A stretch of DNA of 56,393 nt, from NCBI RefSeq assembly GCF_022843985.1, contig NZ_JALHMP010000029.1, positions 1 through 56,393 of the forward strand, read 5' to 3'. Each line of letters opens with the position of its first letter. The stretch's first letter is position 1. A program made the position numbers and the translations under genes. The stretch comes from Phreatobacter sp. GTDB lineage: Bacteria; Pseudomonadota; Alphaproteobacteria; Rhizobiales; Phreatobacteraceae. Below, in pieces: positions 23,656-56,393 of this stretch. The notes under the pieces are model-generated. The model searched no databases and was not told the origin of the DNA. It worked only from the letters and a program-made list of their open reading frames with translations.

Positions 23656-24357
23656 ATGCGTAAAGTGCCCCTCGGCAGGTTTGCCATCACAGGGAGGTTT
23701 CCCAGTCGATATTCAGACGCCCCGCTACAGTACGAGTCGGCTCTCGAGGGCAAATTCCTCGCGATCTTGGACTCCGACGTGCTGCTGAAGAGCATAGCCA
23801 CACAGCAACCGACCGTGATGGTCGACGTGGGCGGCAAGGAGCGAAAATACACACCGGACGTGCTCGTAACGTGGCGCTCTGATGTCGAATGGCCGTACGG
23901 CTCCCAAACTGTTGCATTTGAGGTCAAGCCATTCGCGATCTTGAGGGACAAGCATTACTCGCTGGCGCCTAAGCTTCGTGCCGCACGTCAGGTGCTGAAA
24001 GAAATCGGCATCGGCTTCCGGGTGATTACAGACCGGTCGATCGAAACGCCCCGTCTGGTCAACGCGCGCAAGATGATTGAGGCGCGTTCTTACCGGCCGA
24101 AGGACGAGTGGTACAATGCGGCATCAGAGGTGTTCCGATGGCGGCAAGAGCCTTTCGAGTTAGTCGAGCTGGAGAACGTCCTGTTGCGTGCTGGGGCTCG
24201 CCCCTTCGAGGCGCAAGAGTTCATTTGGCACTGGGTCTCGCGGGGGTTCATCGAGTGCGATCTCAACCGCCCTGTTACAGGAACCACCAAATGTCTGTGG
24301 TGGACTATGCTGGTACTTCAGGGCATGCCTCGCCATGAGGAAGACGCACGGGATTGA
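23656..24357 (+). CDS. tnsA: TnsA-like transposon endonuclease
   Basis: Cuts the 5' ends of the Tn7-type element so that it leaves by cut-and-paste, working with TnsB. The restriction-endonuclease fold is recognisable in 233 residues: YESALEGKF (Glu about 27/31), KYTPDVLV (Asp68) and VAFEVKP (Glu89, Lys91). This matches the E...D...ExK active site of TnsA. The C-terminal half would be the winged-helix region that contacts TnsC. The ATG at 23656 has GGAGA upstream; the open frame to 23533 lies in the terminal repeats. It is the first gene of the tns operon. Confidence 0.88.
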   Translation: MRKVPLGRFAITGRFPSRYSDAPLQYESALEGKFLAILDSDVLLKSIATQQPTVMVDVGGKERKYTPDVLVTWRSDVEWPYGSQTVAFEVKPFAILRDKHYSLAPKLRAARQVLKEIGIGFRVITDRSIETPRLVNARKMIEARSYRPKDEWYNAASEVFRWRQEPFELVELENVLLRAGARPFEAQEFIWHWVSRGFIECDLNRPVTGTTKCLWWTMLVLQGMPRHEEDARD

Positions 24358-24364
24358 GGTCGGC

Positions 24365-26254: not shown

Positions 26255-27168
26255 CCCTCGATCACCTTCACCCAGACGTCCGGCATTTGGCTTCCGAACC
26301 GATCAAGGTCAGGATCTATGAGTTCTGGCCTCGCATCTTCGTGCAAACCAAGACAGTTGAAGCAATCTACCGCGAGATGGACCGACTCGTTTTGCGGGGC
26401 GATCAGGCGCGCTCCCCTATTCTTCTGCTCTGGGGAGACTCAAACGTCGGCAAAACGGCGCTTCTCGAGCGATATGTCCGAGACAAGATGGAAGAGGCTG
26501 TCCAAGGGGGTGAGGTAAGAGCCAGCCTCTACCCGAACATCCCCGTCATCATGATTTCAATGCCGGCGGACAACAACCGCACGGAATTCTTCGAGTTGAT
26601 GCTGACCAAGCTCGGTCGCGTGTTCAACCCCTACGGTAAAAACGACGCCCTGTCGCCGGTCACCCGTAAACTCATGGAAGAGGTGGGGCTACGCCTCGCC
26701 ATCTTCGACGAGATCCATAACGTCATCCCCGCCCACGACGCAAAAGCCGAAATGCTCCGGCAAATCAAGGAATTGTCTAACAAGATACGGCGGCCAATGG
26801 TTTTATCCGGCACGCGCGAGGCATATGAGTTTATCAGTGCAAGCATTGAGCTGAAGGAGCGCTTCATCGACATCGAGATGCCGAGGCTCGAGAGAGGCGA
26901 CGAGTTCCCCACGTTCCTCAGAACAATTGCGCGTCTCATCCCGCTAAAGAAACCCTCGCCCCTTTCGAAGTCCGAGATGGTCGACCTGCTCTATAACCTC
27001 TCGGAGGGGCTCACGGGTAGATTATCTGAACTTCTGTATCACGCCGCGATCGCCGCGGTCGAAGACGGTACGGAACGCATCACTGCAGACAACGTTATTT
27101 CAACCATTTACGCGAAAAATATCCTGAGGAGATTGGGTGCAGTTCGCACTCTGGCGCCCGAACCTTAA
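26251..27168 (+). CDS. tnsC: TnsC-like AAA+ transposition regulator
   Basis: An AAA+ ATPase that polymerises on target DNA and passes the target signal from TniQ/TnsD or TnsE to the transposase. The Walker A is LLLWGDSNVGKTALLERYV (about residues 66-84) and the Walker B is LAIFDEIHNVIP (about 149-160). The sensor region MVLSGTREAYEF follows. With 305 residues it is short, like TniB, rather than like the 555-residue Tn7 TnsC. The start codon overlaps the tnsB stop by 4 bp, indicating translational coupling. TniQ follows after 5 bp. Confidence 0.9.
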   Translation: MTLDHLHPDVRHLASEPIKVRIYEFWPRIFVQTKTVEAIYREMDRLVLRGDQARSPILLLWGDSNVGKTALLERYVRDKMEEAVQGGEVRASLYPNIPVIMISMPADNNRTEFFELMLTKLGRVFNPYGKNDALSPVTRKLMEEVGLRLAIFDEIHNVIPAHDAKAEMLRQIKELSNKIRRPMVLSGTREAYEFISASIELKERFIDIEMPRLERGDEFPTFLRTIARLIPLKKPSPLSKSEMVDLLYNLSEGLTGRLSELLYHAAIAAVEDGTERITADNVISTIYAKNILRRLGAVRTLAPEP

Positions 27169-27173
27169 GAGTA

Positions 27174-28346
27174 ATGTTCCCGTCGCGTTTCGCGTTCAGA
27201 CCACCGCCCCTCCCGGACGAGCTCCTGTCGTCATGGATCCAGAGAACGGCGGTCGGAATGTTCTTCATCCCCTACGCCTTCGTGCACACCTATTGGCGCT
27301 CGGAGCCGCCAGTGCTCAGCCGGGACATCGACCTCATGAGCGATCCCCGGGTCATCGCCGGCATGGCCTTCGGCACCGGCACGGATGCAGACGTGGCAGC
27401 GTCGACCTCCCTCGGCTCTCTCGACGGGCTTCTCTTCTCGGACTGCGGGTCGCGGGGCATCTATCCCTGGGTTCTGCCCGTCGGCGTCCGCAACCGCGAC
27501 CGGAAGCTGCCAGGCCAGCAATACTGCCCCCATTGCCTTGCAGCTGACGAGCGGCCGTATCTTCGCAAGCGCTGGCGTCTTGCTGTTGCGTCAGTATGCC
27601 TCGAGCACCAGCGGATGCTGCTCGACCGTTGTAACGGCTGTGCCTCACCGCTCATGCCGTTCCGATCACGTGCGCTTCACGTTTGCTGGGCCTGCAACAC
27701 CGACCTCCGAGAGGCTGCAACTGAACCCGCGCATCCTCACGCGGTCCGATTCAACCAGATGGCCCAGGACGCCTTGCGCTCTGGCTGGGGGTCACTTGGA
27801 CCATCGACCTTCCACTACAGCCCGGTGATGTTCAGCGTGCTGAGGCAGCTGGGCCGGACCATCATCTCCGGACCGCGCTCGCAGGCATTGCGAACAGTTC
27901 TCAGCGGGCTCTCGAACGTCAGCGACCGGCCCTTCGTCTTCGTCGGTGGTCGAGGTGAGGTGGAGTTCCTCAGCGCCGACGAGCGTCACCGTATGCATGC
28001 TATGATCACCGCTCTGGTCGACGACTGGCCGCACACCTATCTCGCTTGCATGTCCGCGGCCGGAATGTGGCACTCATGGGCTCTGCGGGACATGCCGAAT
28101 GTTCCTCACGCTCTTCGAACCGTCGTGGATGCTGGACTGCGGCCACGCACCTATAGTCCCCCCGTCGAGGAAGTCGTAGAAGCTGCACGCTACATCGCCA
28201 GGCGCGGAAACGGGGTCAGCGGTCGCCAGTTGCGGCGTCTGATCGGAGACAGCATTCATCATCGGGAAGCCGTCGCCCGCGTCCTGGCGCCCCCTCTGGT
28301 ACCCGCGCTAGAGCCCGCGGAGGCGGTCCCGCTCTCGCAGGATTGA
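27174..28346 (+). CDS. tniQ: TniQ/TnsD-family target-site selector
   Basis: A TniQ-domain protein of 390 residues. The family motif LPDELLSSWIQRTA is near the N-terminus. Zinc-binding pairs follow: QYCPHCLAADE, ASVCLEHQRMLLDRCNGC and HVCWACNTDL. In Tn7-type elements the TniQ/TnsD protein binds the attachment-site DNA and recruits TnsC, so this protein probably recognises comM. The C-terminal part (GNGVSGRQLRRLIGDS) could be an extra DNA-binding helix. The length is intermediate between TniQ of Tn5053 and TnsD of Tn7. Its end overlaps the convergent tnsE-like gene by 39 bp. Confidence 0.88.
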   Translation: MFPSRFAFRPPPLPDELLSSWIQRTAVGMFFIPYAFVHTYWRSEPPVLSRDIDLMSDPRVIAGMAFGTGTDADVAASTSLGSLDGLLFSDCGSRGIYPWVLPVGVRNRDRKLPGQQYCPHCLAADERPYLRKRWRLAVASVCLEHQRMLLDRCNGCASPLMPFRSRALHVCWACNTDLREAATEPAHPHAVRFNQMAQDALRSGWGSLGPSTFHYSPVMFSVLRQLGRTIISGPRSQALRTVLSGLSNVSDRPFVFVGGRGEVEFLSADERHRMHAMITALVDDWPHTYLACMSAAGMWHSWALRDMPNVPHALRTVVDAGLRPRTYSPPVEEVVEAARYIARRGNGVSGRQLRRLIGDSIHHREAVARVLAPPLVPALEPAEAVPLSQD

Positions 28347-43782: not shown

Positions 43783-45609
43783 TCATGCCGGTACGGGTCT
43801 GAGCAAAACACAGACATCATCCCTTGGTGTCATGATCGTCGTGCGTGCCTTTGCGCGCGTGATGCTGACCCGAAAATTCTGACGCGCCTGAGTCATCACC
43901 CCGTCGTGGACATTGCCGAAGACGATCCGGTCAGGATTGGCCACGATTTCGCCCTTGAACCGTTTTGGCCATCCTTCAAAGATCACAACCTCGTCGAACT
44001 GCTTTCCCTTCGCCTTGTGCATGTTCATCACCACGACGCCGGATTCAGGCTTGTGGGCTGTTGCGAAATGCTCCTGAACAAACGACTGGCGGGTGATCGC
44101 AAGGGCGTTGCTATAGCGGCCGACGTCACGCCAGTCCTGCGCCAACCCCTGACGGAGCTGCGTACCGCGCTCAAGCAGACGCACGTTACGGACGTCCTTT
44201 GCGACATCCTTCAGTCGCTCACAGGCCCCAGTATCCAGAACGTCGCGCACCGAGACCCAATCTGCATCCGGATCACCTGTGAATGTCAGTGCGGCAGTTG
44301 CCTGGTGCACGGCAAAGGTTCCTTGCAAGACGCTGTTACCAGGCGTTGTTCGTCCTTTCGCTAGACATTCGTTCCACTTGGACAGCGCCTTCCGGAACCG
44401 CGCAGCCTCGTCCATGTCGCCCTTGGTCGGCGCCGTGCCTCCTCGACCGTGAAAATAGCTGCACATCAACTCGACAAATTCGTCGAAACTTCCGTCATGC
44501 CCGCACTTTTGGAGCAGGAAAGCAATGATCTCTGCGGCGAGGATCGGGCCTTCCATATCAACTGCTGCTGAGTGAGAAATCGACGGAACATTACCGAATG
44601 GCTCGCGCAGGATGTCAGACACCATCCGCGTCATTTTCTTGGTCGGCACGAGAATGGCCAACGACCAGTCACGCCGGCCAGACTCAACCAAGCGCTTCCG
44701 GGCTTGCAACACCTGGCCAACCAGTGAAGCATAAGCTTGGTTGGGGTTCGACGCGAACGGCGCGTAGCCGATACCCTGGTATTCCTTCTGCCGAAAATTG
44801 CCGGTCAGGATGTCGTTGCCGAATAGGGCAATCTCCGTCCCCTTGCTCCGATGGTTGTCACCGGCAAGGTCGTGGACCGTCGGCGCGAAATCGGCCTTGA
44901 AGTGGTTCAGCCTTTCCGGATCGGCGCCGATGAAATCGAATATGCGCTGCTCCGGGTCGGCAAGAGCGATCAACGTGCTGTTGGCGCCGAGGGCTTGGAC
45001 CACTCGCCATTGATCGGCGCTGGTGTCCTGAAACTCGTCCAGGGTAATGTACGGATACATCGTAGAGACGAGCGCTCGAACCTTATCTGAGCCATGAAGC
45101 AGGGTCGCCACGCGGTCTGCGAAGAGGTCGAAGCAGACCTTCCCTTCTTCGGTCGCCAGCCGGACACGCTCCGCTTCCTCCTTCGCGCGCTTCTCAGCCT
45201 TTTCCTCGTCCGACAGATTTTTGGCCGCCTTGTAGCCGCTTCGAACCGCCGACAATGCAATCGCCTCATTCGGAGGCGTGAGGATCGTCATCCGTCGTGG
45301 AAAGCCGACAAGGTAGCCGTGCGTTTTAAGGATGCGCCAGAAGAACGAATGGTAGGTATCGACCTCGATCCGTTGCCTCTCCTCTCGCGTGATTGCGCTT
45401 TCTTCGTCGATTGCCTCCAGCACGCGCGAAACGGTTGCACGCGCGAAGCTGAGGAAAAGGATGCGCTGTCCTGGCTTCAATTCCTCCCGCGCGATCTTGG
45501 CCGCTTTGAGGATAGAGACGGTAGTCTTCCCCGAACCGGGACCGCCGGTGACGAGTTGATGCCCGACAGCTTGTAGAATTTCCTTCTGCGCTTCTGTTAG
45601 GTCGACCAC
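43783..45609 (-). CDS. gajB: Gabija-like protein GajB, UvrD-type helicase
   Basis: 608-residue superfamily 1 helicase. Motif I is TGGPGSGKTTVSIL (about 19-32), motif II LDEFQDTSADQW (about 190), and motif VI QNFRVSITRAKARTTI near the C-terminus. It starts with GTG, 9 bp after the gajA-like stop. In Gabija the GajA OLD-type nuclease and the GajB UvrD-like helicase form an anti-phage complex. Adjacent order and strand match the known system. It is about 110 residues longer than Bacillus GajB (494). On its own it would be called only a UvrD-like helicase. Confidence 0.8.
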   Translation of the reverse strand: MVDLTEAQKEILQAVGHQLVTGGPGSGKTTVSILKAAKIAREELKPGQRILFLSFARATVSRVLEAIDEESAITREERQRIEVDTYHSFFWRILKTHGYLVGFPRRMTILTPPNEAIALSAVRSGYKAAKNLSDEEKAEKRAKEEAERVRLATEEGKVCFDLFADRVATLLHGSDKVRALVSTMYPYITLDEFQDTSADQWRVVQALGANSTLIALADPEQRIFDFIGADPERLNHFKADFAPTVHDLAGDNHRSKGTEIALFGNDILTGNFRQKEYQGIGYAPFASNPNQAYASLVGQVLQARKRLVESGRRDWSLAILVPTKKMTRMVSDILREPFGNVPSISHSAAVDMEGPILAAEIIAFLLQKCGHDGSFDEFVELMCSYFHGRGGTAPTKGDMDEAARFRKALSKWNECLAKGRTTPGNSVLQGTFAVHQATAALTFTGDPDADWVSVRDVLDTGACERLKDVAKDVRNVRLLERGTQLRQGLAQDWRDVGRYSNALAITRQSFVQEHFATAHKPESGVVVMNMHKAKGKQFDEVVIFEGWPKRFKGEIVANPDRIVFGNVHDGVMTQARQNFRVSITRAKARTTIMTPRDDVCVLLRPVPA

Positions 45610-45618
45610 AGTAATCGC

Positions 45619-47415
45619 CTATCCTAACAGGTCAGCAAAATCGTCTTCGGGTTCGGGCTCGGCTGGCTGTAGAGGCGGATCACACAGTGCCTTCAGGGTG
45701 ACGCAGGCATCCCGTAGCCACTGCGGGATCTCAGCTTCGGAACACTGTGCCAAGAACTCAGCGATTCCCCAATTGCCTTTCGACCAGCTGAAATAGGCCC
45801 CGAGCGCGGCAGCAGCCTGAGCTTTTGGGTCGGGGTATTTCGCGAGCAGATGCTGTGGCCAATCGAGCTGATCGGCAAACCGCTCCAGGGCCGCTTGGGT
45901 GGTGTTCTTGAGGATCAGATCCTCAATACCCTTCTCGTCGTGCATGAACAGGCGTTCCACCTGGGCTTCTATGGCCACCTTGGCGGCATCCGTCTGCTTG
46001 TCGCATAACGCAAAGGTCCGTTTCCCAAGACTTTTGTACAGCGCTCCAAGGTCGGCGATCTGGGTCTCGCTTCCGGCGTCGATCACGCAGACGCCCAAGG
46101 CTTCCAAAGACGCATAAGCAGCCGGGTTGAGCTCGGCCAGTCGCCGCGCGACGACCGGGAAGGAGGTCGCCTCCGTAGCGCCTTCGGCGATGAGAACTCG
46201 GCGCGAAAGAAGCCCCTCGCAAAATCGGGTTCGGAAATCCTGCCGATAACGCTTGTGCTTGATGCTCTCAGGCAACTCGATTTTGGATTGGCTCAGTTGG
46301 CCATTGTCCGATCGCGAGAGGATGACGGTTTCGTCGAGGCTGAATTCTTCGAGCACATACGGCGAGTGCGACGTGAAGATCGACTGCGCCGACAGCTTGC
46401 GAAGCTCATGGACAATCCGCTTCTGCGCGTATGGCGGAATCGCCGTTTCGGCTTCCTCCATCGCAAAAATGACGTTCTGCTTGTCCTCGGCGATCTGTGA
46501 CAGCATCGCGAGCACCAACATGTTGATCGTCCCTGTTCCCTGCCGAAAGAAGGGAGCGGCATGATCGCCCGCACCCGTGGCGATGAACGCGGTGATGACC
46601 TTGCGCAAATGCTCGCGCGTCAGGTTCGACACCTTTAGGTGCGGCTTCACTCCCCATTCGCGCGGGACGTATTTCTTCAGCGACTTGTCGATGCTCTCGA
46701 GCACGCCTGAGATGCCAATGGACGGGTCGCTCGCGACATCGAAGGCTGCGAGCGTTCCGATCGTCCCTTCCCACATCTGCGGCCGGATTTCCTTCAGCCG
46801 GAGGATGATGTCCAGCAGGCTGCCGTGTTCCAAGCTGAGCGCCCGAGATCCTGTCCTCAACGACCGCAGGAAAAGAAATCCGCAGTGCTGCTTGTCCTTC
46901 TTCGAGAACGATGCAGGTGTCTCATCCTCTGAAAGGCTGCGCGTGAAATAGCTGTTGCCGACGAAGTCATCCTCATCGGGATCGTATTGGCCGACGAATG
47001 TGACGCGCAGCGCCGCCTTGATCTCGGCAGCATCGACCCCAGCCGGGTTGGCCTCCTGATAGAAGTCTCCGGTAGTAGTATTCAGCCACTCGACGTTGGC
47101 TCCAAATCGTGCCTCCTGCTCCGGCGACAGATTGGTGATCGTCACCTCGACCGTGATTTTCGGCGCGGGGCCGGGCTCCGCGCCCTCGGGAGCATCGGGG
47201 TTTGGGCTAGGAAGATAGCGCCCCTGATAGAAATCATGCTCATCCACGGGGGGTCGCCGGCTCAGCCGGTCCGGCCCCAAGGCGAGATCGATCGCTTCGA
47301 ATACCGACGATTTGCCGGTATTGTTGTCGCCGATCAGTACGGCGTGATCAGGCAGCACCAGTTTGGCCGACTGGATGCCGCGAAAATTTTCGATCCCTAC
47401 CGAGAATATCTTCAA
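45619..47415 (-). CDS. gajA: Gabija-like protein GajA, OLD-family ATPase-TOPRIM nuclease
   Basis: 598 residues. The N-terminal ABC-type ATPase starts MKIFSVGIENFRGIQSA with Walker A IGDNNTGKSSVFEA and has IFAMEEAETAIPP as Walker B and FTSHSPYVLEEF as the switch His. The C-terminal TOPRIM domain has the Glu in RVLIAEGATEATSF and Asp residues in CVIDAGSE and FALCDKQTD. Known GajA nicks DNA when nucleotide levels fall and is the nuclease of Gabija. The start is TTG after a GGGGGG stretch. It lies 12 bp after abiEii, in one minus-strand operon. Confidence 0.82.
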   Translation of the reverse strand: MKIFSVGIENFRGIQSAKLVLPDHAVLIGDNNTGKSSVFEAIDLALGPDRLSRRPPVDEHDFYQGRYLPSPNPDAPEGAEPGPAPKITVEVTITNLSPEQEARFGANVEWLNTTTGDFYQEANPAGVDAAEIKAALRVTFVGQYDPDEDDFVGNSYFTRSLSEDETPASFSKKDKQHCGFLFLRSLRTGSRALSLEHGSLLDIILRLKEIRPQMWEGTIGTLAAFDVASDPSIGISGVLESIDKSLKKYVPREWGVKPHLKVSNLTREHLRKVITAFIATGAGDHAAPFFRQGTGTINMLVLAMLSQIAEDKQNVIFAMEEAETAIPPYAQKRIVHELRKLSAQSIFTSHSPYVLEEFSLDETVILSRSDNGQLSQSKIELPESIKHKRYRQDFRTRFCEGLLSRRVLIAEGATEATSFPVVARRLAELNPAAYASLEALGVCVIDAGSETQIADLGALYKSLGKRTFALCDKQTDAAKVAIEAQVERLFMHDEKGIEDLILKNTTQAALERFADQLDWPQHLLAKYPDPKAQAAAALGAYFSWSKGNWGIAEFLAQCSEAEIPQWLRDACVTLKALCDPPLQPAEPEPEDDFADLLG

Positions 47416-47427: not shown

Positions 47428-48444
47428 TTAGGCCCCCATTCGGTTAGCCCGCGCAGCTATATCTGTACATCGCGCCATGAGCGCTTCGAACGGCTCGGCG
47501 TCATCGAAGAGCAGCCCATCCTCGACCATGCGGGCATAGTCGTCCTCCAACGCCTTTGCGCCATCGCCGACCGGCACGAGCTGCAAGCCGCCGTTGACGG
47601 CCGCTGCATAGTCGATCGGCGTGCGGTCGGCGGCCTTCTCCGCGAAGAACATCGCCTTATGCCGGGCGACAGCGTTGGCCAGTTCGCGATCGGCGAAAGC
47701 GGCGTTCGCGAAGCCGGTTTCATCCAGCCGGACAACATCGTGCCAGTGTCTTGCGAAGCGGTCGCCGCGTAGCCGTTCCTGGAGGCAGAAGACATGGATG
47801 GCGGTCGCCTTCTCCCAGAACGTCCGCTCCGCGTGCATGACGCGCGGCCGCGCCGTCGGGAATATCAGCCCGTCGATCAGGCCGGCCGCATCGCAGACGA
47901 CGTCGCGCCCGCTCGCCGGTTCACCCGTCGAGCGGGCGCCGAACTCCAGCATGACGCTGGGCGCGACATAGCCGGACCCGGCTGCGGTCGCCTCATAGTC
48001 GATAAAGAGCCTCTCATCCTCGACGCGAATGACCGCAGCCAGACCTTCGGCGGCCAGCGCGTTCGCGATCACGGGCTGCACGGTCTCCGCGACCCATGCT
48101 GGCAACCGCCTGCGGACCTCGCTGGACCAGCGCTTTTCCTCGCTTCGGGTTTTCGGCAGACCCTCGCCATTGTCCCCGACCAGATCGGGCGCAATCGCCC
48201 GAATGTCGTAGGTCAGATCCACATCCTCCGAAAACCGACGAATGACCTGATAGGCTTTCGACAGCGACGTGCCGCCTTTGAACACCAGATGGTCGCCGAG
48301 CGGCGCGGCGTAGAGGGTCGCCAGCGCCCACACCACCCACACATCCTTTTCGAGAAGATGGGTAGGCCGGCCCGAGCGGTCGGCAGCGACGCCCAGCGCA
48401 TCGCGCCGATCCTCGGCCGAAAGCTGGAGAAAGACGTCAGCCAT
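47428..48444 (-). CDS. abiEii: AbiEii-type nucleotidyltransferase toxin
   Basis: 338 residues of the nucleotidyltransferase AbiEii/AbiGii family, toxin of a type IV-like abortive-infection pair. The GSxnDxD-type motif is HLVFKGGTSLSKAYQVIRRFSEDVDLTYDI, with a Lys and Asp downstream (ERTFWEKATAIHVFCLQ; RHWHDVVRL). Members modify tRNA or other targets by adding nucleotides. I prefer the ATG at 48444, which overlaps abiEi by 8 bp; a TTG at 48459 is also open. Downstream it is nearly joined to gajA. Confidence 0.9.
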   Translation of the reverse strand: MADVFLQLSAEDRRDALGVAADRSGRPTHLLEKDVWVVWALATLYAAPLGDHLVFKGGTSLSKAYQVIRRFSEDVDLTYDIRAIAPDLVGDNGEGLPKTRSEEKRWSSEVRRRLPAWVAETVQPVIANALAAEGLAAVIRVEDERLFIDYEATAAGSGYVAPSVMLEFGARSTGEPASGRDVVCDAAGLIDGLIFPTARPRVMHAERTFWEKATAIHVFCLQERLRGDRFARHWHDVVRLDETGFANAAFADRELANAVARHKAMFFAEKAADRTPIDYAAAVNGGLQLVPVGDGAKALEDDYARMVEDGLLFDDAEPFEALMARCTDIAARANRMGA

Positions 48445-49030
48445 AGGCCGCCTTGCCAACGCTCTGCGCGAGCCATGTCGGAAGCTGCGGCGCGGCGGCG
48501 ACCAGTTCGCCGAACACGCCAGGCGGCATCTTCCGCTTCAATGTCGTGAGCGCGGCCTCCGCCTTTTCCGGGCCGAGCCAGGCCAGCGCCCGCACAGCCT
48601 CCCCCGCCGGCCGGTTGGCCAGCGCCAATAGCCAGCGCGGTGCGTGCCGCAATTCCACGACCTGCTTGCCGAGGTGCATTTTTCGGCTGCGCCCGGAGGT
48701 CAGATAGACCGAGCGGACGGGCACCTGCGTCGTCAAGCCAAGGGCGTTCGCCGCGGCGGCGCCGTTCGAGACGATGATCTCCCCCTTTTGGTTCGCAAGG
48801 GCCTCGACAGCCTGCTCGACCGAAGGTGTGCGCGTGCCGAACCGGCTGGCGATGGGACGCAGATAGACGCCGCGACCGGCGCGGATGAGCTGCCCGCGCT
48901 CGGACAGACGCGACAATGCCTGATCCACGGCCGCCCGGTTTCCGAGGTGAAGCAGGCTCTTGGCAGACACAGGGGCGCCTTCGGGCAGGCCCGTCGCATG
49001 CGACAGAATCTGTTCGGTTAGCCGTGTCAT
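48437..49030 (-). CDS. abiEi: AbiEi-type antitoxin and transcriptional repressor
   Basis: 197 residues. The N-terminal winged helix (GAPVSAKSLLHLGNRAAVDQALSRLSERGQLIRAGRGVYLRP) is the AbiEi DNA-binding domain. The C-terminal half neutralises the AbiEii toxin in the family. The ATG at 49030 has AGGAG 9 bp upstream; the longer open frame to 49285 would run into the ardC leader. It is the first gene of the five-gene minus-strand operon and is expected to repress it by binding inverted repeats near the promoter at 49049-49077. Confidence 0.9.
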   Translation of the reverse strand: MTRLTEQILSHATGLPEGAPVSAKSLLHLGNRAAVDQALSRLSERGQLIRAGRGVYLRPIASRFGTRTPSVEQAVEALANQKGEIIVSNGAAAANALGLTTQVPVRSVYLTSGRSRKMHLGKQVVELRHAPRWLLALANRPAGEAVRALAWLGPEKAEAALTTLKRKMPPGVFGELVAAAPQLPTWLAQSVGKAAYG

Positions 49031-49048
49031 CGTCTTTCTCCTGTTGGA

Positions 49049-49077
49049 AACATATGCGAGTTTCTGACAGTTTTCAA
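49049..49077 (-). promoter_or_regulatory. Sigma-70 promoter of the abiE-gabija operon
   Basis: On the minus strand, TTGAAA (49077-49072) and TATGTT (49054-49049) are 17 bp apart, and the start codon of abiEi is 18 bp further. Inverted GTTTTCAA/TTGGAAAC segments overlap both boxes (7 of 8 positions pair), which would suit AbiEi autoregulation. Confidence 0.65.
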
Positions 49078-49183
49078 GGATGCCCATGAGAACAGGCCGG
49101 ATAAGGGGGAAAGCCTTCCCCTGCGGCCGAGCCGGGGTCTCGGCCGACCCCTTCTGCGGGGAGAGCCCCGCAACGCCCCCCTG

Positions 49184-49265
49184 GAGAGTGAGAGTGCGGA
49201 CGGGGTTTCCGTGGCGGGTTGAGGGCTGGAGAAGAGGTCTCCGGCGCCCGTCGCGGAGAACCGCG
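49184..49265 (+). promoter_or_regulatory. Structured 5' leader of ardC, shared with two other genes
   Basis: Starts with GAGAGTGAGAG (49184-49194). A hairpin at 49226-49244 closes an AGAGG loop, and an outer helix pairs GGCGGG (49213-49218) with CCCGTC (49247-49252). It ends with GCGGAG, a likely ribosome binding site, before the ATG. The parB-like leader has the same layout with compensatory base changes. Confidence 0.7.
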
Positions 49266-50228
49266 ATGTTCAGGAATGACCGCAACGGGCGTGCCGGCTC
49301 CGGCCGGACGAGCCTTTACGACGACATCACCAGCAAAATCATCGACGAGCTGGAGGCAGGCCGCTTCCCTTGGGTCCAGCCCTGGGGCACCGCCACGGCC
49401 AAGGCGCCCCTCGCCATGCCGAGGAACGCCGCGACCGGGCGGCATTATTCGGGAATCAATGTGCTGATCCTCTGGGGCGCAGTGATCCAGCACGGCTTTC
49501 CCGGCCAGAGCTGGATCACCTTCCGTCAGGCCCTGTCGCTCGGCGGCAATGTCCGCCGGGGCGAACGCGGCACCACCGTCGTCTATGCCGATCGTTTCAC
49601 CCCAGAGGACGAAAAGCGCCGCGCCCGTGAGGCCGGCGAGGAAGCGGCGGCGATCCCGTTCCTCAAGCGCTTCACCGTGTTCAACGCGGCGCAATGCGAC
49701 GGCCTGCCAGAGGATGTCGCCATCGTTGCTCCACCGCCTCCGCCCGGTCTCATCGAGCCGCAGGTCGATGCCCTGATCCGGGCCACGGGCATCGAATTCC
49801 GCATCGGCGGCGACCGCGCCTTCTATGTGCCGGCACACGACTATGTGCAGGTGCCGCCGCCCCAGGCATATTTCGAGCCGATCAACTGGCATCGCACGGC
49901 CCTGCATGAGATGGGGCACGCCACCGGCCATGCCTCCCGGCTCGGCCGCGACTTGACCGGCGGCTTCGGCACCAGGAAATACGCCTTCGAGGAACTGGTG
50001 GCCGAGATCAACGCGGCCTTCTGCTGCGCATCCCTCGGCATCGCGCCCACCGTCCGTCATGCCGATTATATCGGCTCCTGGCTGGAGGTGCTGCGCGAAG
50101 ACAATCGCGCCATCGTCCGCGCCGCCTCCCAGGCGAGCAAGGCGGCCGATTGGCTGCTCGGCTTCCTGCCGGACGCCGATCTCAGCTCCGACGACGCCTC
50201 GGCAGATGGTGAACGGCAGGCAGCATGA
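49266..50228 (+). CDS. ardC: ArdC-family antirestriction protein
   Basis: 320 residues. The N-terminal DUF1738/ArdC domain (SLYDDITSKIIDELEAGRFPWVQPW, HYSGINVLILW) binds single-stranded DNA in ArdC proteins. The C-terminal zincin-like domain holds the metal site TALHEMGHATGHASRLGRD plus the downstream Glu in YAFEELVAEINAAF. ArdC proteins protect conjugating or incoming DNA from restriction. The ATG at 49266 is preceded by CGGAG. It is divergent from abiEi and the first of a plus-strand series that looks plasmid- or ICE-derived. Confidence 0.9.
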   Translation: MFRNDRNGRAGSGRTSLYDDITSKIIDELEAGRFPWVQPWGTATAKAPLAMPRNAATGRHYSGINVLILWGAVIQHGFPGQSWITFRQALSLGGNVRRGERGTTVVYADRFTPEDEKRRAREAGEEAAAIPFLKRFTVFNAAQCDGLPEDVAIVAPPPPPGLIEPQVDALIRATGIEFRIGGDRAFYVPAHDYVQVPPPQAYFEPINWHRTALHEMGHATGHASRLGRDLTGGFGTRKYAFEELVAEINAAFCCASLGIAPTVRHADYIGSWLEVLREDNRAIVRAASQASKAADWLLGFLPDADLSSDDASADGERQAA

Positions 50229-50304
50229 TCGACCTGAAAACCGGAAAGGCGGGAAAGCAGGTCTCCGGCTTCACGCCTTTTCGCTTCCGTGGCGCTGCCC
50301 TCCT

Positions 50305-50387
50305 GAGAGTGAGAGGGCGGCGCTTCGCTTCGTGACGGGTTGGAGGTCGAGAGAGAGGCTCTCGGCGCCCGTCGCGGAGTCAAGATC
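50305..50387 (+). promoter_or_regulatory. Structured 5' leader of the parB-like gene
   Basis: Begins GAGAGTGAGAG (50305-50315). The inner stem CGAGAG (50348-50353)/CTCTCG (50359-50364) closes an AGAGG loop, and the outer stem GACGGG (50334-50339) pairs with CCCGTC (50368-50373). GTCGCGGAG before the start is identical to the ardC leader. Confidence 0.7.
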
Positions 50388-52514
50388 ATGGCAACTGCCG
50401 TTCAGAAGATCACCCTGTCGTCGGCGCGCGACATTCCCTTCAACAAGCTGGTGCTGAGTCAGTCCAATGTCCGCCGCGTCAAGGCCGGCGTCTCGATCGA
50501 GGAATTGGCCGAGTCCATCACCCGGCACGGCCTCATCCAGAGCCTGCATGTGCGCCCGGTCCTCGATGGCGATGGCCATGAGACCGGCATGTTCGAAGTG
50601 CCCGCCGGCGGCCGCCGCTATCGCGCGCTCGAATTGCTGGTGAAGCAGAAGCGCCTGGCCAGAAATGCTCCGGTCCCCTGCGTCATTGGCGACGCCCACA
50701 GCGACATCCTGATCGACGAGGTGTCGCTGGTCGAGAACATGGAACGCGCACCGCTCCATCCGCTCGACCAGTTCCGCGCCTTTCAGGCCATGCGCGACAA
50801 GGGCATGACCGAGGAGGCCATCGCCGCCGCTTTCTTCGTCAGCGTCACCGTGGTGAAGCAGCGCCTGCGGCTCACGTCCGTCTCGCCGGCCCTGCTCGAG
50901 ATCTATGCCGATGACGGCATGACGCTCGAACAGCTCATGGCCTTCACCGTCAGCCCCGACCATGCCCGTCAGGAACAGGTCTGGGATGCGATCAAGGATA
51001 GCTGGCAGAAGGAACCCTATCAGATCCGGCGGATGCTGACCGAAACCGCAGTCCGCGCTTCGGACAAGCGGGCCGTCTTCGTCGGTGTCGACGCCTACGA
51101 GGCCGCAGGCGGCATCATGCTGCGCGATCTGTTCCAGTCCGACGACGGCGGCTGGCTGCAAGACCCGGCCCTGCTCGACCGCATGGTGGCCGAGAAGCTG
51201 AAGAGCGCCGCCGACCAGATCGCCGAGGAAGGCTGGAAGTGGATCGAGGTCGCCATGAGCTTCCCCTATGGCCACGACCATGGTCTTCGTGAACTCAGCG
51301 GCACGACGGTCGATCTGACCGACGAGGAACGCGCGACCCGCGAGGCATTGCGCGAAGAATATGACCGGATCGAAGCGGAATATTCCGAAGCCGACGAGCT
51401 GCCCGACGCCATCGATCAGCGTCTCGGCGAAATCGAACAGGCGCTGGAAGCCTTCGACAACCGCCCGGTCAGCTACGATCCGGCCGACATCGCGATCGCC
51501 GGCGCCTTCGTCAGCCTCGACGCCGACGGTTCTCTGTCGATCGACCGCGGCTATGTCCGCGCCGGGGATGAAGCCCAGGCCGGGCCCGATGGTGAGGCAA
51601 CCGGGGGCGACCAGACCGACACGCCGGTCGTCCAACGGGCGGTCATCACCATCGGCGGCAAGCCCGCCGAACCCGAGGACGACGAGGAGGACGGCATCAA
51701 GCCACTCCCCGAGCGTCTCGTGATCGAGCTGACGGCCCATCGCACAGTGGCGCTGCGCAACGCGGTGGCGGAAAATCCGCACGTCGCCATGACGATGTTG
51801 CTGCACAAGCTCCTCAGCGACACCTTCATCCACACCAACGCGACCGGCTGCCTCGAGACCAATGTCCGCCACATCTTCTTCCCGGGACAGTCCGAGGAAT
51901 TGAAGGACAGCCCATCGGCGCGGGCGGTCAACGATCGCCACGAACGCTGGGGGGATCACATCCCCGCCGACGATCAGGCGCTGTGGGACTGGCTGACCGA
52001 TCTCGATGACGGCACGCGCATGGAGCTGCTGGCGCTTTGCGTCAGCTATGGCGTCAATGCGCTGTTCGAGCGTCCGAACCCCTATTCGGGCTCGGGCGTC
52101 AGTCAGCACGGTCTCGACGTGCGCCTGGCCCAGGCCGACCGGCTCTCGCGCGCGACCGGTCTCGACATGGTGGCCGTTGGCTGGAAGCCCACGGTCGGCA
52201 ACTATCTCGGCCGCGTGACCAAGCCCCGTATTCTCGAAGCCGTCCGTGAGGGCGCCGGCGAGCGGGCCGCCCAGCTCATCGATCACCTGAAGAAGAGCGA
52301 CATGGCCAAGGAAGCCGAACGCCTTCTTGCGGAAACCGGCTGGCTGCCGGAACCGCTGCGCCTGGCGTCCCTCGACGGCGATCAGCCCAGCCCGGACGAT
52401 CAGGCCGACGCTGGCGACAACACCGCGCTGCCGGACTTCCTCACCGATGAGAGCGAGGACGAAGCGGCCAGCGACGACGAGGACGAAGTCCAGCACGCCA
52501 TAGCGGCTGAATAA
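50388..52514 (+). CDS. ParB-like protein
   Basis: 708 residues. The N-terminal ParB/Srx-type domain has FNKLVLSQSNVRRVK, the nucleotide-binding box AGGRRYRALELL and VENMERAPLHPLDQ. A helix-turn-helix follows (MTEEAIAAAFFVSVTVVKQRLRL). The long C-terminal part is acidic (about 530-700) and ends in Asp/Glu-rich DESEDEAASDDEDE. It is much longer than a chromosomal ParB (about 300), and no parA is nearby. Homologues of this kind sit on rhizobial and sphingomonad plasmids and ICEs next to ardC and strawberry-notch genes. Its role may be DNA stabilisation or regulation during transfer. Confidence 0.85.
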   Translation: MATAVQKITLSSARDIPFNKLVLSQSNVRRVKAGVSIEELAESITRHGLIQSLHVRPVLDGDGHETGMFEVPAGGRRYRALELLVKQKRLARNAPVPCVIGDAHSDILIDEVSLVENMERAPLHPLDQFRAFQAMRDKGMTEEAIAAAFFVSVTVVKQRLRLTSVSPALLEIYADDGMTLEQLMAFTVSPDHARQEQVWDAIKDSWQKEPYQIRRMLTETAVRASDKRAVFVGVDAYEAAGGIMLRDLFQSDDGGWLQDPALLDRMVAEKLKSAADQIAEEGWKWIEVAMSFPYGHDHGLRELSGTTVDLTDEERATREALREEYDRIEAEYSEADELPDAIDQRLGEIEQALEAFDNRPVSYDPADIAIAGAFVSLDADGSLSIDRGYVRAGDEAQAGPDGEATGGDQTDTPVVQRAVITIGGKPAEPEDDEEDGIKPLPERLVIELTAHRTVALRNAVAENPHVAMTMLLHKLLSDTFIHTNATGCLETNVRHIFFPGQSEELKDSPSARAVNDRHERWGDHIPADDQALWDWLTDLDDGTRMELLALCVSYGVNALFERPNPYSGSGVSQHGLDVRLAQADRLSRATGLDMVAVGWKPTVGNYLGRVTKPRILEAVREGAGERAAQLIDHLKKSDMAKEAERLLAETGWLPEPLRLASLDGDQPSPDDQADAGDNTALPDFLTDESEDEAASDDEDEVQHAIAAE

Positions 52515-52521
52515 CGCAACA

Positions 52522-52549
52522 GCGCGGGGCGGCTCCGTTCGTCCCGCGC
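52522..52549 (+). terminator. GC-rich hairpin downstream of the parB-like gene
   Basis: GCGCGGG (52522-52528) pairs with CCCGCGC (52543-52549). No T tract follows directly. It lies 8 bp after the stop, upstream of a second hairpin. Confidence 0.45.
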
Positions 52550-52571
52550 GTCCCACCCCGATCTTCCATCT

Positions 52572-52597
52572 GCCCGGTCATCGCACCGGGCATTTTC
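52572..52597 (+). terminator. Intrinsic terminator or attenuator before the 138-residue gene
   Basis: GCCCGGT (52572-52578) and ACCGGGC (52585-52591) with a 6-nt loop, then ATTTTCG. The next start codon is 17 bp further, so it may also attenuate read-through into the small-gene cluster. Confidence 0.6.
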
Positions 52598-52613
52598 GTT
52601 TCAGGAGCCTGTC

Positions 52614-53030
52614 ATGGCCGACTATTTCACCCATTTCTCGTGCCTGCTCGACGTCGTCACGCCGGAGAACGCCGCCCGCGCGCTCGACCTATACAACCGC
52701 CTGTCCGAGGCTGGCGCGTCGGAAGAACCGCCTTCCGAGGGTTTTCTCCTCTCGATCCAGCCCGAGCATGGCGGCGCCCAGCTCTGGATGCGCGACGACA
52801 TCACCGGCGATCCCGAGCGGCTGATCCAGTTCGTGAAGCGCTGCGCCGCGGAGTTCGGCCTGACCGGCCGCTGGGGTTTCCAATATGCCAACACCTGCTC
52901 CAAGCCCCGGCTCGACGGCTTCGGCGGTGGCGCGCATGTCCTCGATCTCGCCACCGGGGAGACGGTGGACTGGATCTACACCGATGGCTGGCTCGCCGAG
53001 ACCATCTCCGACTCAGGAGACCGGATATGA
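52614..53030 (+). CDS. Hypothetical protein, plasmid/ICE type (138 aa)
   Basis: 138 residues; I do not recognise a function. It has no signal peptide or transmembrane helix. The fold appears mixed alpha/beta (ADYFTHFSCLLDVVTPENAARALDL; GFLLSIQPEHGGAQLWMRDDITGDPERLIQFVKRCAAEFGLTG). CAGGAG lies just upstream of the ATG. The stop overlaps the next start (ATGA), so the small genes form a coupled set. Its neighbours suggest a conjugative-island role, but nothing in it shows this directly. Confidence 0.72.
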   Translation: MADYFTHFSCLLDVVTPENAARALDLYNRLSEAGASEEPPSEGFLLSIQPEHGGAQLWMRDDITGDPERLIQFVKRCAAEFGLTGRWGFQYANTCSKPRLDGFGGGAHVLDLATGETVDWIYTDGWLAETISDSGDRI

Positions 53031-53293
53031 GCATCCCCTCCTTCGCCCAGACCAATTTTCAGACCCTTCTGCGCGCCGCAGGTGACGGCAACCTCGCGCT
53101 CATGGAGTGCCTCGACGCCGTGACCGGCGCTCCGCGTTACGTCATCTGCGCAGTGGGACGAGACGATGGGGATTTCGTCTTCACGCCCTTCGGCCATCTC
53201 GCCGACGGCAATCCTTATGACGCCTATCTGCCGCCCGACCCCGGCGATCCTGACCGTTTCATACATCCCGACACACCGGGAGAGGCGCCATGA
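53027..53293 (+). CDS. Small hypothetical protein (DUF6117-like)
   Basis: 88 residues (SIPSFAQTNFQTLLRAAGDGNLALMECLDAVTG...VICAVGRDDGDFVFTPFGHLADGNPYDAYLPP). It resembles small proteins seen beside ardC and parB-like genes on alphaproteobacterial plasmids and ICEs; the DUF6117 link is from memory. The ATG overlaps the preceding stop by 4 bp and the gene ends 4 bp into the next frame. No function is known. Confidence 0.7.
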   Translation: MSIPSFAQTNFQTLLRAAGDGNLALMECLDAVTGAPRYVICAVGRDDGDFVFTPFGHLADGNPYDAYLPPDPGDPDRFIHPDTPGEAP

Positions 53294-53586
53294 TGGACAT
53301 CGACGCCATCTTCGCCGCCGATCACGAGCGGCCGCCCACCGAACGGTCGTTCCCCTGGCCAGAGATCAGGGACGGCATCACCGTCGTCATAGAGCCCAAG
53401 CCTCATTGGGCCAGCGACATGAGGGCATTCCGGGCCGAGGCCCGTGAATATTGCGCCTATGCCGATTGGACCACGAACGGCGCGCGCGCCAGGTTCTTCG
53501 AGCACATCGACACCAGCGGCGATGACCTGATCCGCAAGGCGCGCATGCTCATCGCCAGTGAGATCGCCGACGGATACTGGACCTGA
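53290..53586 (+). CDS. Small hypothetical protein (98 aa)
   Basis: 98 residues, acidic and aromatic-rich (PWPEIRDGITVVIEPKPHWASDMRAFRAEAREYCAYADW...RFFEHIDTSGDDLIRKARMLIASEIADGYW). No recognised domain, signal or membrane helix. It starts overlapping the previous stop (ATGATGG) and is followed by a terminator, so it closes the three-gene set. Confidence 0.68.
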   Translation: MMDIDAIFAADHERPPTERSFPWPEIRDGITVVIEPKPHWASDMRAFRAEAREYCAYADWTTNGARARFFEHIDTSGDDLIRKARMLIASEIADGYWT

Positions 53587-53594
53587 CGCCTCAA

Positions 53595-53627
53595 AGCGCC
53601 CCGCCGATCGGCCGAGGCGCTTTTCTC
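53595..53627 (+). terminator. Intrinsic terminator after the small-gene set
   Basis: AGCGCC (53595-53600) and GGCGCT (53616-53621) followed by TTTCTC. It ends the three small genes and precedes the strawberry-notch leader. Confidence 0.65.
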
Positions 53628-53650
53628 ATGCCGGCCGCGAAAAGCGTTTC

Positions 53651-53745
53651 GAGAGTGAGAGGGCCGCCGGGACGAGGTGAGTCCGGGCGGTCGAGAGAGA
53701 GCGTCGTTCGGGCTTCCCGTTCCCGCTCTCCCGAGGTTCCAGTCC
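53651..53745 (+). promoter_or_regulatory. 5' leader of the strawberry-notch gene
   Basis: Begins with the same GAGAGTGAGAG (53651-53661) and carries TCGAGAGAGAG (53691-53701), as in the parB-like leader. Here the stem is GAGAGCG (53697-53703)/CGCTCTC (53724-53730) with a longer loop, and the conserved CCCGTCGCGGAG end is missing. It is a diverged member of the same leader type. Confidence 0.55.
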
Positions 53746-56283
53746 ATGAACATCATGTCACCCGTAGCCGTTCCGGCCGCGCCCATCGTCCGTGCGTCCG
53801 CCATCATAGCCGCTGCGCATCGTCTTCTCGCCTTGCTCGAACGCGGGCAGCGGATCGACAGCGCCGCTCTTCGCACCGGCATGGAGACCGCCTTCGACGC
53901 TTCCGACGTGACCGGCGTCTGGGACTGGAAGACGGCCTATGAAGCCTGCGAATGCGCGACCGTCCTGTTCCTGCACAAATACGGACGCGCGCTTTTCCGT
54001 AAAGCCGACAGCCCGGCTGCACGGCTTTCCGCTTTGTCGAAAATCACCGGCCTCCTGCCGACGCACACCCGTCGCTCCGAAGAGAGCCAAGCGCTTCAGC
54101 AATTCTCGACCCCGATCCCGCTCGGCCTTGCCGCCATTGCCGCTGCCGCCATCACGCCGCGCGACATCGTGCTGGAACCTTCGGCCGGCACGGGACTGCT
54201 CGCCATCCTTGCCGAGATCAGCGGCGGTTCGCTGCTCATCAACGAGTTGGCGGAAACCCGCGCCGATCTGCTTGGCCAGCTCTTTCCGGCCCTTGCTATC
54301 ACGCGCGTCGACGCCGCCCAGATCGACGATCACCTCCCCGCGAGCGCCATTCCCTCCGTTGTCCTGATGAATCCGCCGTTCTCGGCAATGGCGAACGTCT
54401 CCGGCCGCGTGGCCGACGCCGCCGCCCGCCATGTCGCCTCGGCTCTGGCGCGGCTCGCCGACGGTGGGCGTTTGGTAACGATCACCGGCGCGAACTTCGG
54501 TCCCGAGCAACCCGCCTGGCGCGATGCCTTCGTGCGGCTTCAGGAGCGCGGTCGCGTCGTCTTCACGGCGACGATCGACGGCTCGGTCTATGCCAAGCAC
54601 GGCACGACCATCGAGACGCGGCTCACCGTCATCGACAAGCTGCCGGCCGAAGACCCGGCCATGTTCTCGCCATCCGCCGGTCTCGCGCCCGACGTCGCCA
54701 CACTGCTCGCATGGATCGCGGCACAGGTTCCACCACGCCTGCCGGTTTCTCTGCCCGACATCACGCCACTTGTGTCGGGCTCAGCGCCCCGCACCGTGCG
54801 CGGCTATCTCGCACGGGCCGCAACCGCGCGCCCGGCCGCTTGCTCGTCCATCGACCCGGAGGGCGTCGAACTCGCCTATGACACGGTGGACTGGACGCCA
54901 CCTGAGGGCGCGAACCTCACGGATGCGATCTATGAAGAATACGGATTGCAGTCGATCCGCATTTCCGGCTCGCAGGCGCACCCGACAAAACTCGTGCAAT
55001 CGGCAGCCATGGCGAGCATTGCGCCGCCCAAACCCGCCTATCGGCCGATGCTGCCGGCGGGCATCACCGATCTGCTGTCGGACGCCCAGCTCGAAACCGT
55101 CATCTATGCCGGCGAAGCCCATTCGGATTTTCTCGCAGGATCGTGGACGGTCGATGCGACCTTCGACCTCGTCCAGGCAGCGCCGGCCGAGGCCGAGAAC
55201 GCCGTGCGGTTCCGCCGTGGCTTCATGCTCGGCGATGGCACCGGAGCCGGCAAAGGCCGTCAGTCTGCGGGCATTATCCTGGACAACTGGCTACGCGGTC
55301 GCCGCAAGGCGGTCTGGATTTCTAAATCCGACAAGCTGATCGAGGACGCGCAACGCGACTGGTCAGCCCTTGGCATGGAGCGCCTGCTGGTCACGCCGCT
55401 ATCGCGCTTTGCCCAGGGCAAGCCGATCATGCTGTCGGACGGCGTCCTATTTGCAACCTATGCCACGCTGCGTTCCGACGACCGCGGCGAGAAGGTTTCG
55501 CGCGTCCGGCAGATCGTCGATTGGTTGGGTTCCGATTTCGACGGAGTGATCATTTTCGACGAGAGCCACGCCATGGCCAATGCCGCAGGCGGCAAGGGAG
55601 AACGCGGCGACATTGCCGCTTCGCAGCAGGGCCGCGCGGGGCTTCGCCTCCAGCACGCCCTGCCGAACGCGCGCGTCGTCTATGTCTCCGCCACCGGCGC
55701 GACCACCGTCGATAACCTCGCCTATGCCCAGCGGCTCGGCCTGTGGGGCGGCGACGACTTCCCCTTCGCCACCCGCGCCGAATTCGTGGAGGCGATCGAG
55801 GACGGTGGCGTCGCGGCGATGGAGGTTTTGGCCCGCGACCTTCGCGCGCTCGGCCTCTATACCGCCCGTTCGCTTTCCTATGATGGCGTCGAATACGAGC
55901 TGGTCGAACACGCCCTGACCAACGAGCAGCGCCGCATCTATGATGCCTACGCTGGCGCCTTCGCCGTCATCCACAACCACCTCGACGCCGCGATGCGGGC
56001 CGCCAACATTACCGGCAGCGACGGCACGTTGAACCGGCAGGCCAAATCCGCCGCCCGCTCGGCATTCGAGAGCGCGAAGCAGCGCTTCTTCGGCCATCTG
56101 CTCACGTCGATGAAGACCCCGACCCTGATCCGGTCCATCGAACGCGACCTGAACGATGGCCACGCTGCCGTCATCCAGATCGTCTCGACCGGCGAAGCCC
56201 TGATGGAACGCCGTCTGGCCGAGATCCCGACCGAGGAATGGAACGATGTTCGCGTCGACATCACGCCGCGCGAATATGTCTAA
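53746..56283 (+). CDS. Strawberry-notch-like methyltransferase/helicase, C-terminally truncated
   Basis: 845 residues remain of a protein that is usually about 1,400. The N-terminal DNA-methyltransferase-like part has EPSAGTGLLAILAEI and VLMNPPFSAMAN (NPPF). The helicase part has LGDGTGAGKGRQSAGI (Walker A-like), GVLFATYATLR, IFDESHAMANAAGGKGERG (DEAH-type) and VYVSATGATTVDNL. The strawberry-notch C-terminal domain is missing. The frame meets a stop directly after VDITPREYV, where intact relatives, as I remember them, continue with the SNO C-terminal region. The break coincides with a 26-bp palindrome, so an insertion is likely. The protein may be inactive. Confidence 0.85.
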   Translation: MNIMSPVAVPAAPIVRASAIIAAAHRLLALLERGQRIDSAALRTGMETAFDASDVTGVWDWKTAYEACECATVLFLHKYGRALFRKADSPAARLSALSKITGLLPTHTRRSEESQALQQFSTPIPLGLAAIAAAAITPRDIVLEPSAGTGLLAILAEISGGSLLINELAETRADLLGQLFPALAITRVDAAQIDDHLPASAIPSVVLMNPPFSAMANVSGRVADAAARHVASALARLADGGRLVTITGANFGPEQPAWRDAFVRLQERGRVVFTATIDGSVYAKHGTTIETRLTVIDKLPAEDPAMFSPSAGLAPDVATLLAWIAAQVPPRLPVSLPDITPLVSGSAPRTVRGYLARAATARPAACSSIDPEGVELAYDTVDWTPPEGANLTDAIYEEYGLQSIRISGSQAHPTKLVQSAAMASIAPPKPAYRPMLPAGITDLLSDAQLETVIYAGEAHSDFLAGSWTVDATFDLVQAAPAEAENAVRFRRGFMLGDGTGAGKGRQSAGIILDNWLRGRRKAVWISKSDKLIEDAQRDWSALGMERLLVTPLSRFAQGKPIMLSDGVLFATYATLRSDDRGEKVSRVRQIVDWLGSDFDGVIIFDESHAMANAAGGKGERGDIAASQQGRAGLRLQHALPNARVVYVSATGATTVDNLAYAQRLGLWGGDDFPFATRAEFVEAIEDGGVAAMEVLARDLRALGLYTARSLSYDGVEYELVEHALTNEQRRIYDAYAGAFAVIHNHLDAAMRAANITGSDGTLNRQAKSAARSAFESAKQRFFGHLLTSMKTPTLIRSIERDLNDGHAAVIQIVSTGEALMERRLAEIPTEEWNDVRVDITPREYV

Positions 56284-56303
56284 TGTGGAGCTCCACATTA
56301 GAC
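56278..56303. repeat. Perfect 26-bp palindrome at the broken end of the strawberry-notch gene
   Basis: Each half is 13 bp (GTCTAATGTGGAG and its reverse complement), with no spacer. The stop codon of the truncated gene lies inside it. Terminal palindromes of this sort are known at the ends of elements moved by trios of tyrosine recombinases (RIT elements). That link is inference. Confidence 0.9.
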
Positions 56304-56393
56304 GTATTCTTTGCAGTCGCAGTTTATGTCGAGCGTGGCGGCGAGAGACGCAGGTTTCCTTCGGTTTTCCATGATTTCACTCCAGATAATATG
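56298..56393 (-). CDS. Partial open frame entering from the right edge
   Basis: On the minus strand a frame is open from the window end down to a stop inside the palindrome and would end LDINCDCKEYV. Only 31 codons are visible, and an internal ATG at about 56371 is possible. This would be the place for the 3' end of a gene of the inserted element, but the stretch is too short to identify. Confidence 0.25.
   Translation of the reverse strand, partial: HIIWSEIMENRRKPASLAATLDINCDCKEYV

Follow-up and report, generated by a model that had tools for sequence, protein, structure and literature searches.

Why are three otherwise unrelated genes on one bacterial contig preceded by the same short leader? 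The question arises from 56,393 nt of DNA of Phreatobacter sp. (Alphaproteobacteria; RefSeq assembly GCF_022843985.1, contig NZ_JALHMP010000029.1), the whole of which we call the window. The genes are ardC, encoding an anti-restriction protein (49266–50228; ArdcN and MPTase-PolyVal domains by Pfam), a parB-like gene (50388–52514; Pfam ParB_N, with HTH_ParB under the cut-off), and a gene for a strawberry-notch (sno) type helicase (53746–56283; Pfam AAA_34, an open frame of 845 aa), all on the + strand. They almost certainly carry members of a genuine family of structured mRNA leaders that is widespread and, it appears, undescribed. As far as sequence comparison can tell, a conserved RNA structure stands in this family at a fixed distance from the starts of genes that share nothing else.

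Class I leaders in the window and beyond

The 11-mer GAGAGTGAGAG occurs at 49184, 50305, and 53651, always on the + strand. The distances to the ATG codons at 49266, 50388, and 53746 are 82, 83, and 95 nt for ardC, the parB-like gene, and sno, respectively, so that the same motif begins all three leaders 82–95 bp upstream of the starts, as the original prediction stated. The three exact matches compare with none in each of 100 dinucleotide shuffles of the window. When up to two mismatches are allowed, the 11-mer is not enriched in the window (14 seen, 18.7 expected). Within the 4.33-Mb genome, GAGAGTGAGAGNGC is confined to the same three places.

The ardC and parB-like leaders are predicted to fold alike, with an outer stem, an inner stem, and an AGAGG loop (z-scores of −4.13 and −2.07), in agreement with the two-helix shape first proposed; the sno leader folds differently and is less unusual (z-score of −1.43). 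We named the shared architecture class I. It is about 75 nt long and consists of AGAGnnAGAG, a spacer, a 13-bp outer stem, an internal loop, and a 7-bp inner stem closed by the AGAGG loop. The Shine-Dalgarno sequence (SD) GGAG forms the end of the outer-stem 3' arm, and in the ardC and parB-like leaders of the window the ATG follows 7–8 nt further. The 75-nt ardC leader (49184–49258, +) opens with the predicted unpaired motif (49184–49194). The 5' arm of its outer stem (49207–49219) pairs with the 3' arm at 49246–49258, which contains the SD (49255–49258), and its inner hairpin (49226–49244) joins 49226–49232 to 49238–49244 around the apical loop at 49233–49237. The corresponding parts of the parB-like leader (50305–50379, +) are an outer stem at 50328–50340/50367–50379, an inner stem at 50347–50353/50359–50365, a loop at 50354–50358, and an SD at 50376–50379. 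Laid side by side, the two leaders differ by A-U/G-C swaps in four inner-stem pairs, and one outer-stem pair is G-U in the ardC leader and A-U in the parB-like leader; this direct comparison reproduces the compensatory changes reported earlier.

A covariance-model search over relatives, which had been suggested as a check, recovered a family. Model R1, built from 14 leaders (alignment A2) and including the ATG, was searched against 87 loci: the window, six plasmid loci selected from 40 listed among 363 records (L004–L009, of which L005 is pMLb of Mesorhizobium japonicum MAFF 303099), and 80 loci reached via ArdC relatives (best 80 of 557). All were chosen through ardC, and seven supplied the training set. 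R1 matched 205 sites at E ≤ 0.1, among them the ardC and parB-like leaders of the window (91.0 and 95.6 bits, both training sequences). Of the 205, 202 end precisely at the ATG of an open frame, partly by construction as the model contains the ATG; one lies 2 nt off, and the two lacking a start are sites of a second class, described below, that were dropped from the gene assignment. By protein cluster, 87 sites precede ardC, 82 parB (one of these is really sno), 24 the gene of a 185-aa protein, 6 RadC (weak matches of 23–33 bits), 3 that of a 128-aa protein, and one that of another protein, whose 398-aa relative has a DUF932 match under the Pfam cut-off. The leader is thus found before ardC in 87/87 loci and before parB in 81/87. 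Fifty-three loci carry it before ardC and parB, 17 before these and the 185-aa gene, six before ardC alone, and 11 in other combinations; identical leaders are present in some of the loci.

A second model, R2, was trained on 31 diverse leaders truncated at the SD and is devoid of the ATG; the window ardC leader, again a training sequence, scores 86.0 bits. R2 matches were found in 32 of 385 genomes of the class, five of them weak (an earlier class search with R1 gave 21 of 289). The 25 positives among 299 genomes of the phylum were without exception recorded as own, same-order, or same-class genomes. One locus, L068, is labelled Thiocapsa and derives from a metagenome bin, so it is possibly misplaced. 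Class I matches near 24–25 bits, in five of the 32 class genomes and on contig 47 of the Phreatobacter genome itself, are probably due to chance. Forty stretches, selected from the match places listed, hold 71 R2 sites. An ATG lies 6–10 nt downstream of 59, another start within 3–32 nt of nine, and none behind three; the spacing to the ATG is mostly 7–9 nt. According to the best BLAST match, 34 sites precede parB, 12 ardC, nine DUF932-like genes, three genes of the 185-aa type, three sno, and seven other genes (one encoding an AlpA-type regulator); three precede none. The ardC leader had no blastn match in phage records. No Rfam 15 family matches the window at the gathering score, and at E ≤ 10 the region 48800–54200 yields two weak matches, both outside the leaders. 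Searches of an open-access library turned up no account of the leader.

The structure is supported by covariation. In alignment A5, which comprises the best 150 of the 205 R1 sites and 129 distinct leaders, 97.2% of 2580 cells pair, and the covariation score was reached by none of 500 shuffles. Both partners have changed in 8 of the 20 pairs, a number equalled in 2 of 500 shuffles, and pairing drops to 30–50% when the structure is slid along the alignment. For a larger set of 182 distinct leaders, from which the five weakest of the 71 rows of alignment A8 were dropped, we wrote a parsimony resampling as phylogeny-aware null, in place of R-scape. Summed covariation reached 750 over the full set and 426 after dereplication to 82 (maxima of 187 and 84 in 300 nulls each). 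Five of the 20 structure pairs have E < 0.05 over those 20 tests, six after dereplication, and the five best of all 1653 column pairs in the 182-leader set belong to the structure. A MAFFT realignment of 106 dereplicated leaders, made without structure and less the same five rows, still pairs 92.2% of cells, with 18 of 20 pairs doubly changed and 146 doubly changed cells (maximum of 60 in 300 shuffles).

In the inner stem, pairing is kept and sequence is not. The unpaired parts behave differently: in AGAG(N2)AGAG, the eight letters at positions 2–5 and 8–11 are each 94–100% conserved among 174 distinct leaders and the two between them vary, a conservation somewhat flattered because the model used for retrieval includes the motif. 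The apical loop reads AGAGG in 104 of 129 distinct leaders. Slippage of a GA repeat, raised as an alternative explanation of the copies, is unlikely because the AGAG letters are conserved while the two between vary. A class I switch in which the 5' AGAG would pair with the inner stem was set aside by sequence inspection rather than computation, as CUCU is absent from inner stems such as GGCCUUCGG.

A second class before sno genes

The original prediction took the third leader for a copy of the same element with a rearranged stem. The 5' motif is indeed kept together with other stems, but R1 gives this leader just 15.6 bits (E of 0.13), and it is a member of a second conserved class, related to class I, rather than a single rearranged copy. 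In the window it spans 53651–53748 (+) through the ATG, with the SD GAGG at 53733–53736. It scores 89.3 bits with the class II covariance model R3, for which it was a training sequence; alignment A6 also supports its assignment. Class II leaders precede sno in all 61 loci that have a sno start on the + strand, 60 directly and one, L099, by an R3 search of 77 sources: the sno start of L099 had first been placed too far upstream, and R3 locates the leader at 13301–13399. Beyond these loci, R3 matches 18 of 372 genomes. Among 20 sites fetched as loci (of 23 places listed), 16 lie before sno-like proteins and one before a RadC-like protein. At the remaining three, the protein matches none of those compared; one of them (L223) resembles the protein behind the site of L176, which has DUF6878 and DUF6915.

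Class II leaders run from the 5' AGAGnnAGAG through an outer stem of CGGGACGGG type, the unpaired GAGAGAGAG, and an invariant CUCU to GAGG. The predicted consensus pairs this CUCU with the second AGAG of the 5' motif; these pairs show almost no variation and no covariation. Support for the class II structure lies in the aggregate. Shuffling gave 49 doubly changed cells against a mean of 23 (0/500 as high), but 43 of 500 shuffles equalled the count of doubly changed pairs, and 218 equalled the number of pair types. A phylogeny-aware test on 54 leaders gave nothing significant. With 76 model-aligned leaders, from alignment A9 after the last two of its 82 rows, both class I sites, were dropped, summed covariation was 210 against a maximum of 106 in 300 nulls, one single pair having E < 0.05 over 21 tests. 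The sno frame of the window (845 aa) is shorter than the sno genes of plasmid loci L004 and L005 (about 1440 aa), and a 38-bp near-perfect palindrome (56272–56309) lies at its end, near the contig end.

Folding strand and mode of action

Within the structure, sense-strand cells contain 523 G-U and 16 A-C combinations. In the alignment made without structure, these numbers are 380 and 36, a ratio of 10.6; composition explains only part of the G-U excess, because the ratio for slid structures is 0.8 to 3.1. Since G-U pairs would read as A-C on the opposite strand, folding most likely takes place on the sense strand, and probably in the RNA. This bias speaks against an improbable DNA-level explanation, in which a repressor would bind the element as an inverted-repeat operator, or the element would act as a hairpin promoter on single-stranded entering DNA, of the Frpo/ssi type. 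Repeated secondary structures before early genes, including anti-defence genes of conjugative elements, are typical of the latter in the passages that describe them (PMC11541004). Those elements are described as single-stranded DNA structures with −35 and −10 sequences; here, pairing on the sense strand extends up to the SD, mostly 7–9 nt from the ATG, which leaves little space for a start site. In our reading of the mechanism, an entering-DNA promoter has its hairpin on the template strand, where the pairs would become A-C; the sense-strand G-U bias and the ATG placement argue against such a template-strand structure. The inner stem, moreover, conserves pairing instead of sequence. We regard it as hardly credible that the leader is part of the coding sequence, or that it is a mobile repeat which inserts in front of genes. 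The window ardC leader is open in frame by chance (open reading frame 49080–50228), but in-frame stops interrupt 84 of the 87 leaders of ardC and 51 of the 82 in the parB cluster. As to a mobile repeat, the copies are not homogenised within elements, and all are sense-oriented at a fixed distance from the ATG.

We propose that cis-acting mRNA leaders set the initiation of translation of early or establishment genes on alphaproteobacterial conjugative elements. The stem would restrict ribosome access, with the SD paired in ardC and parB and the stem abutting it in other genes. The conserved unpaired AGAG motifs would be the binding place of a shared trans factor, a protein or a small RNA, which on binding would raise or lower translation of all leader genes jointly; SD pairing would be one version of this control. 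A bound factor is favoured because a stem ending at or beside the SD and unpaired AGAG motifs are the features common to all leaders. As to when the switch would act, the kinds of gene involved suggest the moment a new cell is reached. We give a probability of about 0.6 to control of establishment genes by this mechanism, judged from sequence comparison and predicted folds. Of the cis-acting coordination first suggested, the cis-acting RNA is borne out by covariation, G-U bias, placement, and the unrelated genes behind it; that the genes are coordinated, and that this happens as a new host is entered, we infer from gene identity and precedent.

Predicted SD accessibility agrees with this proposal for two genes. 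After leaders without GGAG, duplicates, and short ones were left out, the mean unpaired probability of the SD is 0.07 in parB leaders (n = 73) and 0.17 in ardC leaders (n = 80), against 0.41 and 0.46 with the upstream sequence shuffled. Several observations weigh against it. No SD occlusion is predicted in the 185-aa gene (0.40 against 0.38 shuffled) or in class II (0.45 against 0.33), which rules out SD sequestration as a universal mechanism. The pair at the A of the SD (columns 28–84) is broken in 39 of 129 leaders and is the least kept of the 20. Larger alignments were expected to show significant covariation, and the aggregate does; in A5 alone, however, with all column pairs and the phylogeny-aware null, no pair has E < 0.05, the two best-scoring ones being structure pairs. 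Scaled to all 1653 pairs, no pair of the full set would keep E < 0.05, and after dereplication two would. A5, A8, and A9 were aligned to the model, a bias toward structure. The 200 nt upstream of the element hold no clear promoter, and neither transcript nor trans factor was identified in this analysis. Similarity between ardC and parB leaders is 0.741 within loci and 0.739 between them (as high in 387 of 2000 permutations); these values give no sign of co-evolution with a local factor, nor of concerted evolution of leaders within an element.

These last points would fit a structured leader that works without a trans factor, as a constitutive translation throttle or mRNA stabiliser in which AGAG serves as ribosome standby site or makes structural contacts. 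The predicted folds are stable (folded together with 30 nt of coding sequence, parB and ardC leaders have a mean minimum free energy of −53 to −54 kcal/mol), and the unpaired stretches are rich in purines. We nevertheless find this explanation rather unlikely: unpaired motifs conserved at 94–100% seem beyond the needs of a throttle, and the AGAG motifs recur in class II with different stems. An RNA thermometer would pair the SD in a stem weak enough to open on heating; here the predicted folds are stable, and the SD is predicted to be paired in ardC and parB and not in the 185-aa gene and class II.

Precedents, limits of the family, and genomic surroundings

The nearest precedent, by analogy, is EGeRS1 of Bacillus plasmid pLS20. 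The sections of the source that treat it describe repeats with inverted repeats directly upstream of the ribosome-binding site of ardC and other presumed establishment genes, and give the mechanism as unknown (PMC8708921). Here too, a shared structure stands directly before the ribosome-binding site of ardC and other genes, with the SD inside or beside it; compared by description, EGeRS1 is a Bacillus element of 420–750 bp with many inverted repeats, whereas the present leaders measure 75–100 nt and are alphaproteobacterial. EGeRS2/Reg of p576, as outlined in the same sections, also brings ardC and other establishment genes under joint control, but by a promoter and a ribbon-helix-helix repressor on DNA instead of RNA structure at the ribosome-binding site (PMC8708921). 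ArdC of R388 is reported to be required in the recipient but dispensable in the donor (PMC7213743), which makes the entry reading attractive. A survey of polyvalent proteins places ArdC-N, ParB-type, RadC, and strawberry-notch domains in conflicts between mobile elements and hosts, and its passages on them do not mention the leader (PMC5512222).

Two well-known RNA-based systems also invite comparison. The traJ leader is controlled by the antisense RNA FinP with FinO; it likewise offers leader hairpins at the ribosome-binding site on conjugative plasmids, but concerns one gene and an antisense RNA, whereas many genes are involved here and no antisense RNA is known. Target leaders of CsrA/RsmA expose GGA in an apical loop, a feature that the class I loop (AGAGG in 104/129) does not have.

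The family has limits. Ten distant ArdC loci (33.7–50.2% identity), selected from 40 listed of 3076 records and two of them outside the alphaproteobacteria, gave no relevant R2 match in 10/10 cases (best, 14.8 bits). One of these is Novosphingobium plasmid pLA2 (L208), where the ardC and parB leaders are mutually identical over about 99 nt and unmatched by R2. Three exact copies of this different leader lie at 23834, 26091, and 28983, before parB, ardC, and a third ATG. A second short hairpin, resembling GCCGCGAnnGGCGCGG and noted without a chance control, precedes distant ardC, DUF736, and DUF2493 genes on several plasmids (L004, 24428; L005, 21141; L006, 19553 and 21527; L200, 3932 and 6713; L201, 3941 and 5523; L203, 3935; L207, 3958). 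Genes of this kind may quite generally be preceded by shared leaders. More speculatively, and with considerable doubt, the leaders could define an establishment regulon at the RNA level. An RNA-binding protein or small RNA encoded by the element would recognise AGAG and, in the resident cell, silence early genes such as ardC, the parB-like gene, sno, and radC. A recipient without the factor would translate all anti-defence and early proteins in a single burst upon entry, and other alphaproteobacterial lineages, such as that of pLA2, would have evolved unrelated shared leaders to the same purpose.

Directly upstream of the ardC element, a hairpin-rich stretch, GGGGAAAGCCTTCCCCTGCGGCCGAG...CCCCGCAACGCCCCC (49105–49183), recurs in L004, L046, L052, and L070 and is replaced in other loci, for example L044, L094, and L116; it is possibly an oriT or another control region. 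An AbiEii/AbiEi-type pair (47428–49030, −) lies beside the ardC leader and divergent from ardC, and a Gabija-type pair (43783–47415, −) comprises a GajB-like UvrD helicase and a GajA-like ATPase, both near full length by PADLOC models. Further away, genes with Mu-transposase C-terminal, TniB, and TniQ domains stand in a row (24188–28343), which we take to be a Tn7-like or Tn5053-like transposition module.

The timing of anti-defence proteins at conjugative entry has been worked out in few systems, and the leader offers a small regulatory unit open to direct testing. Across the alphaproteobacteria, this short RNA would serve as a tag for establishment genes of unknown function, such as those of the 185-aa, DUF932-like, and DUF6878/DUF6915 proteins, and the leader family could become an Rfam entry.

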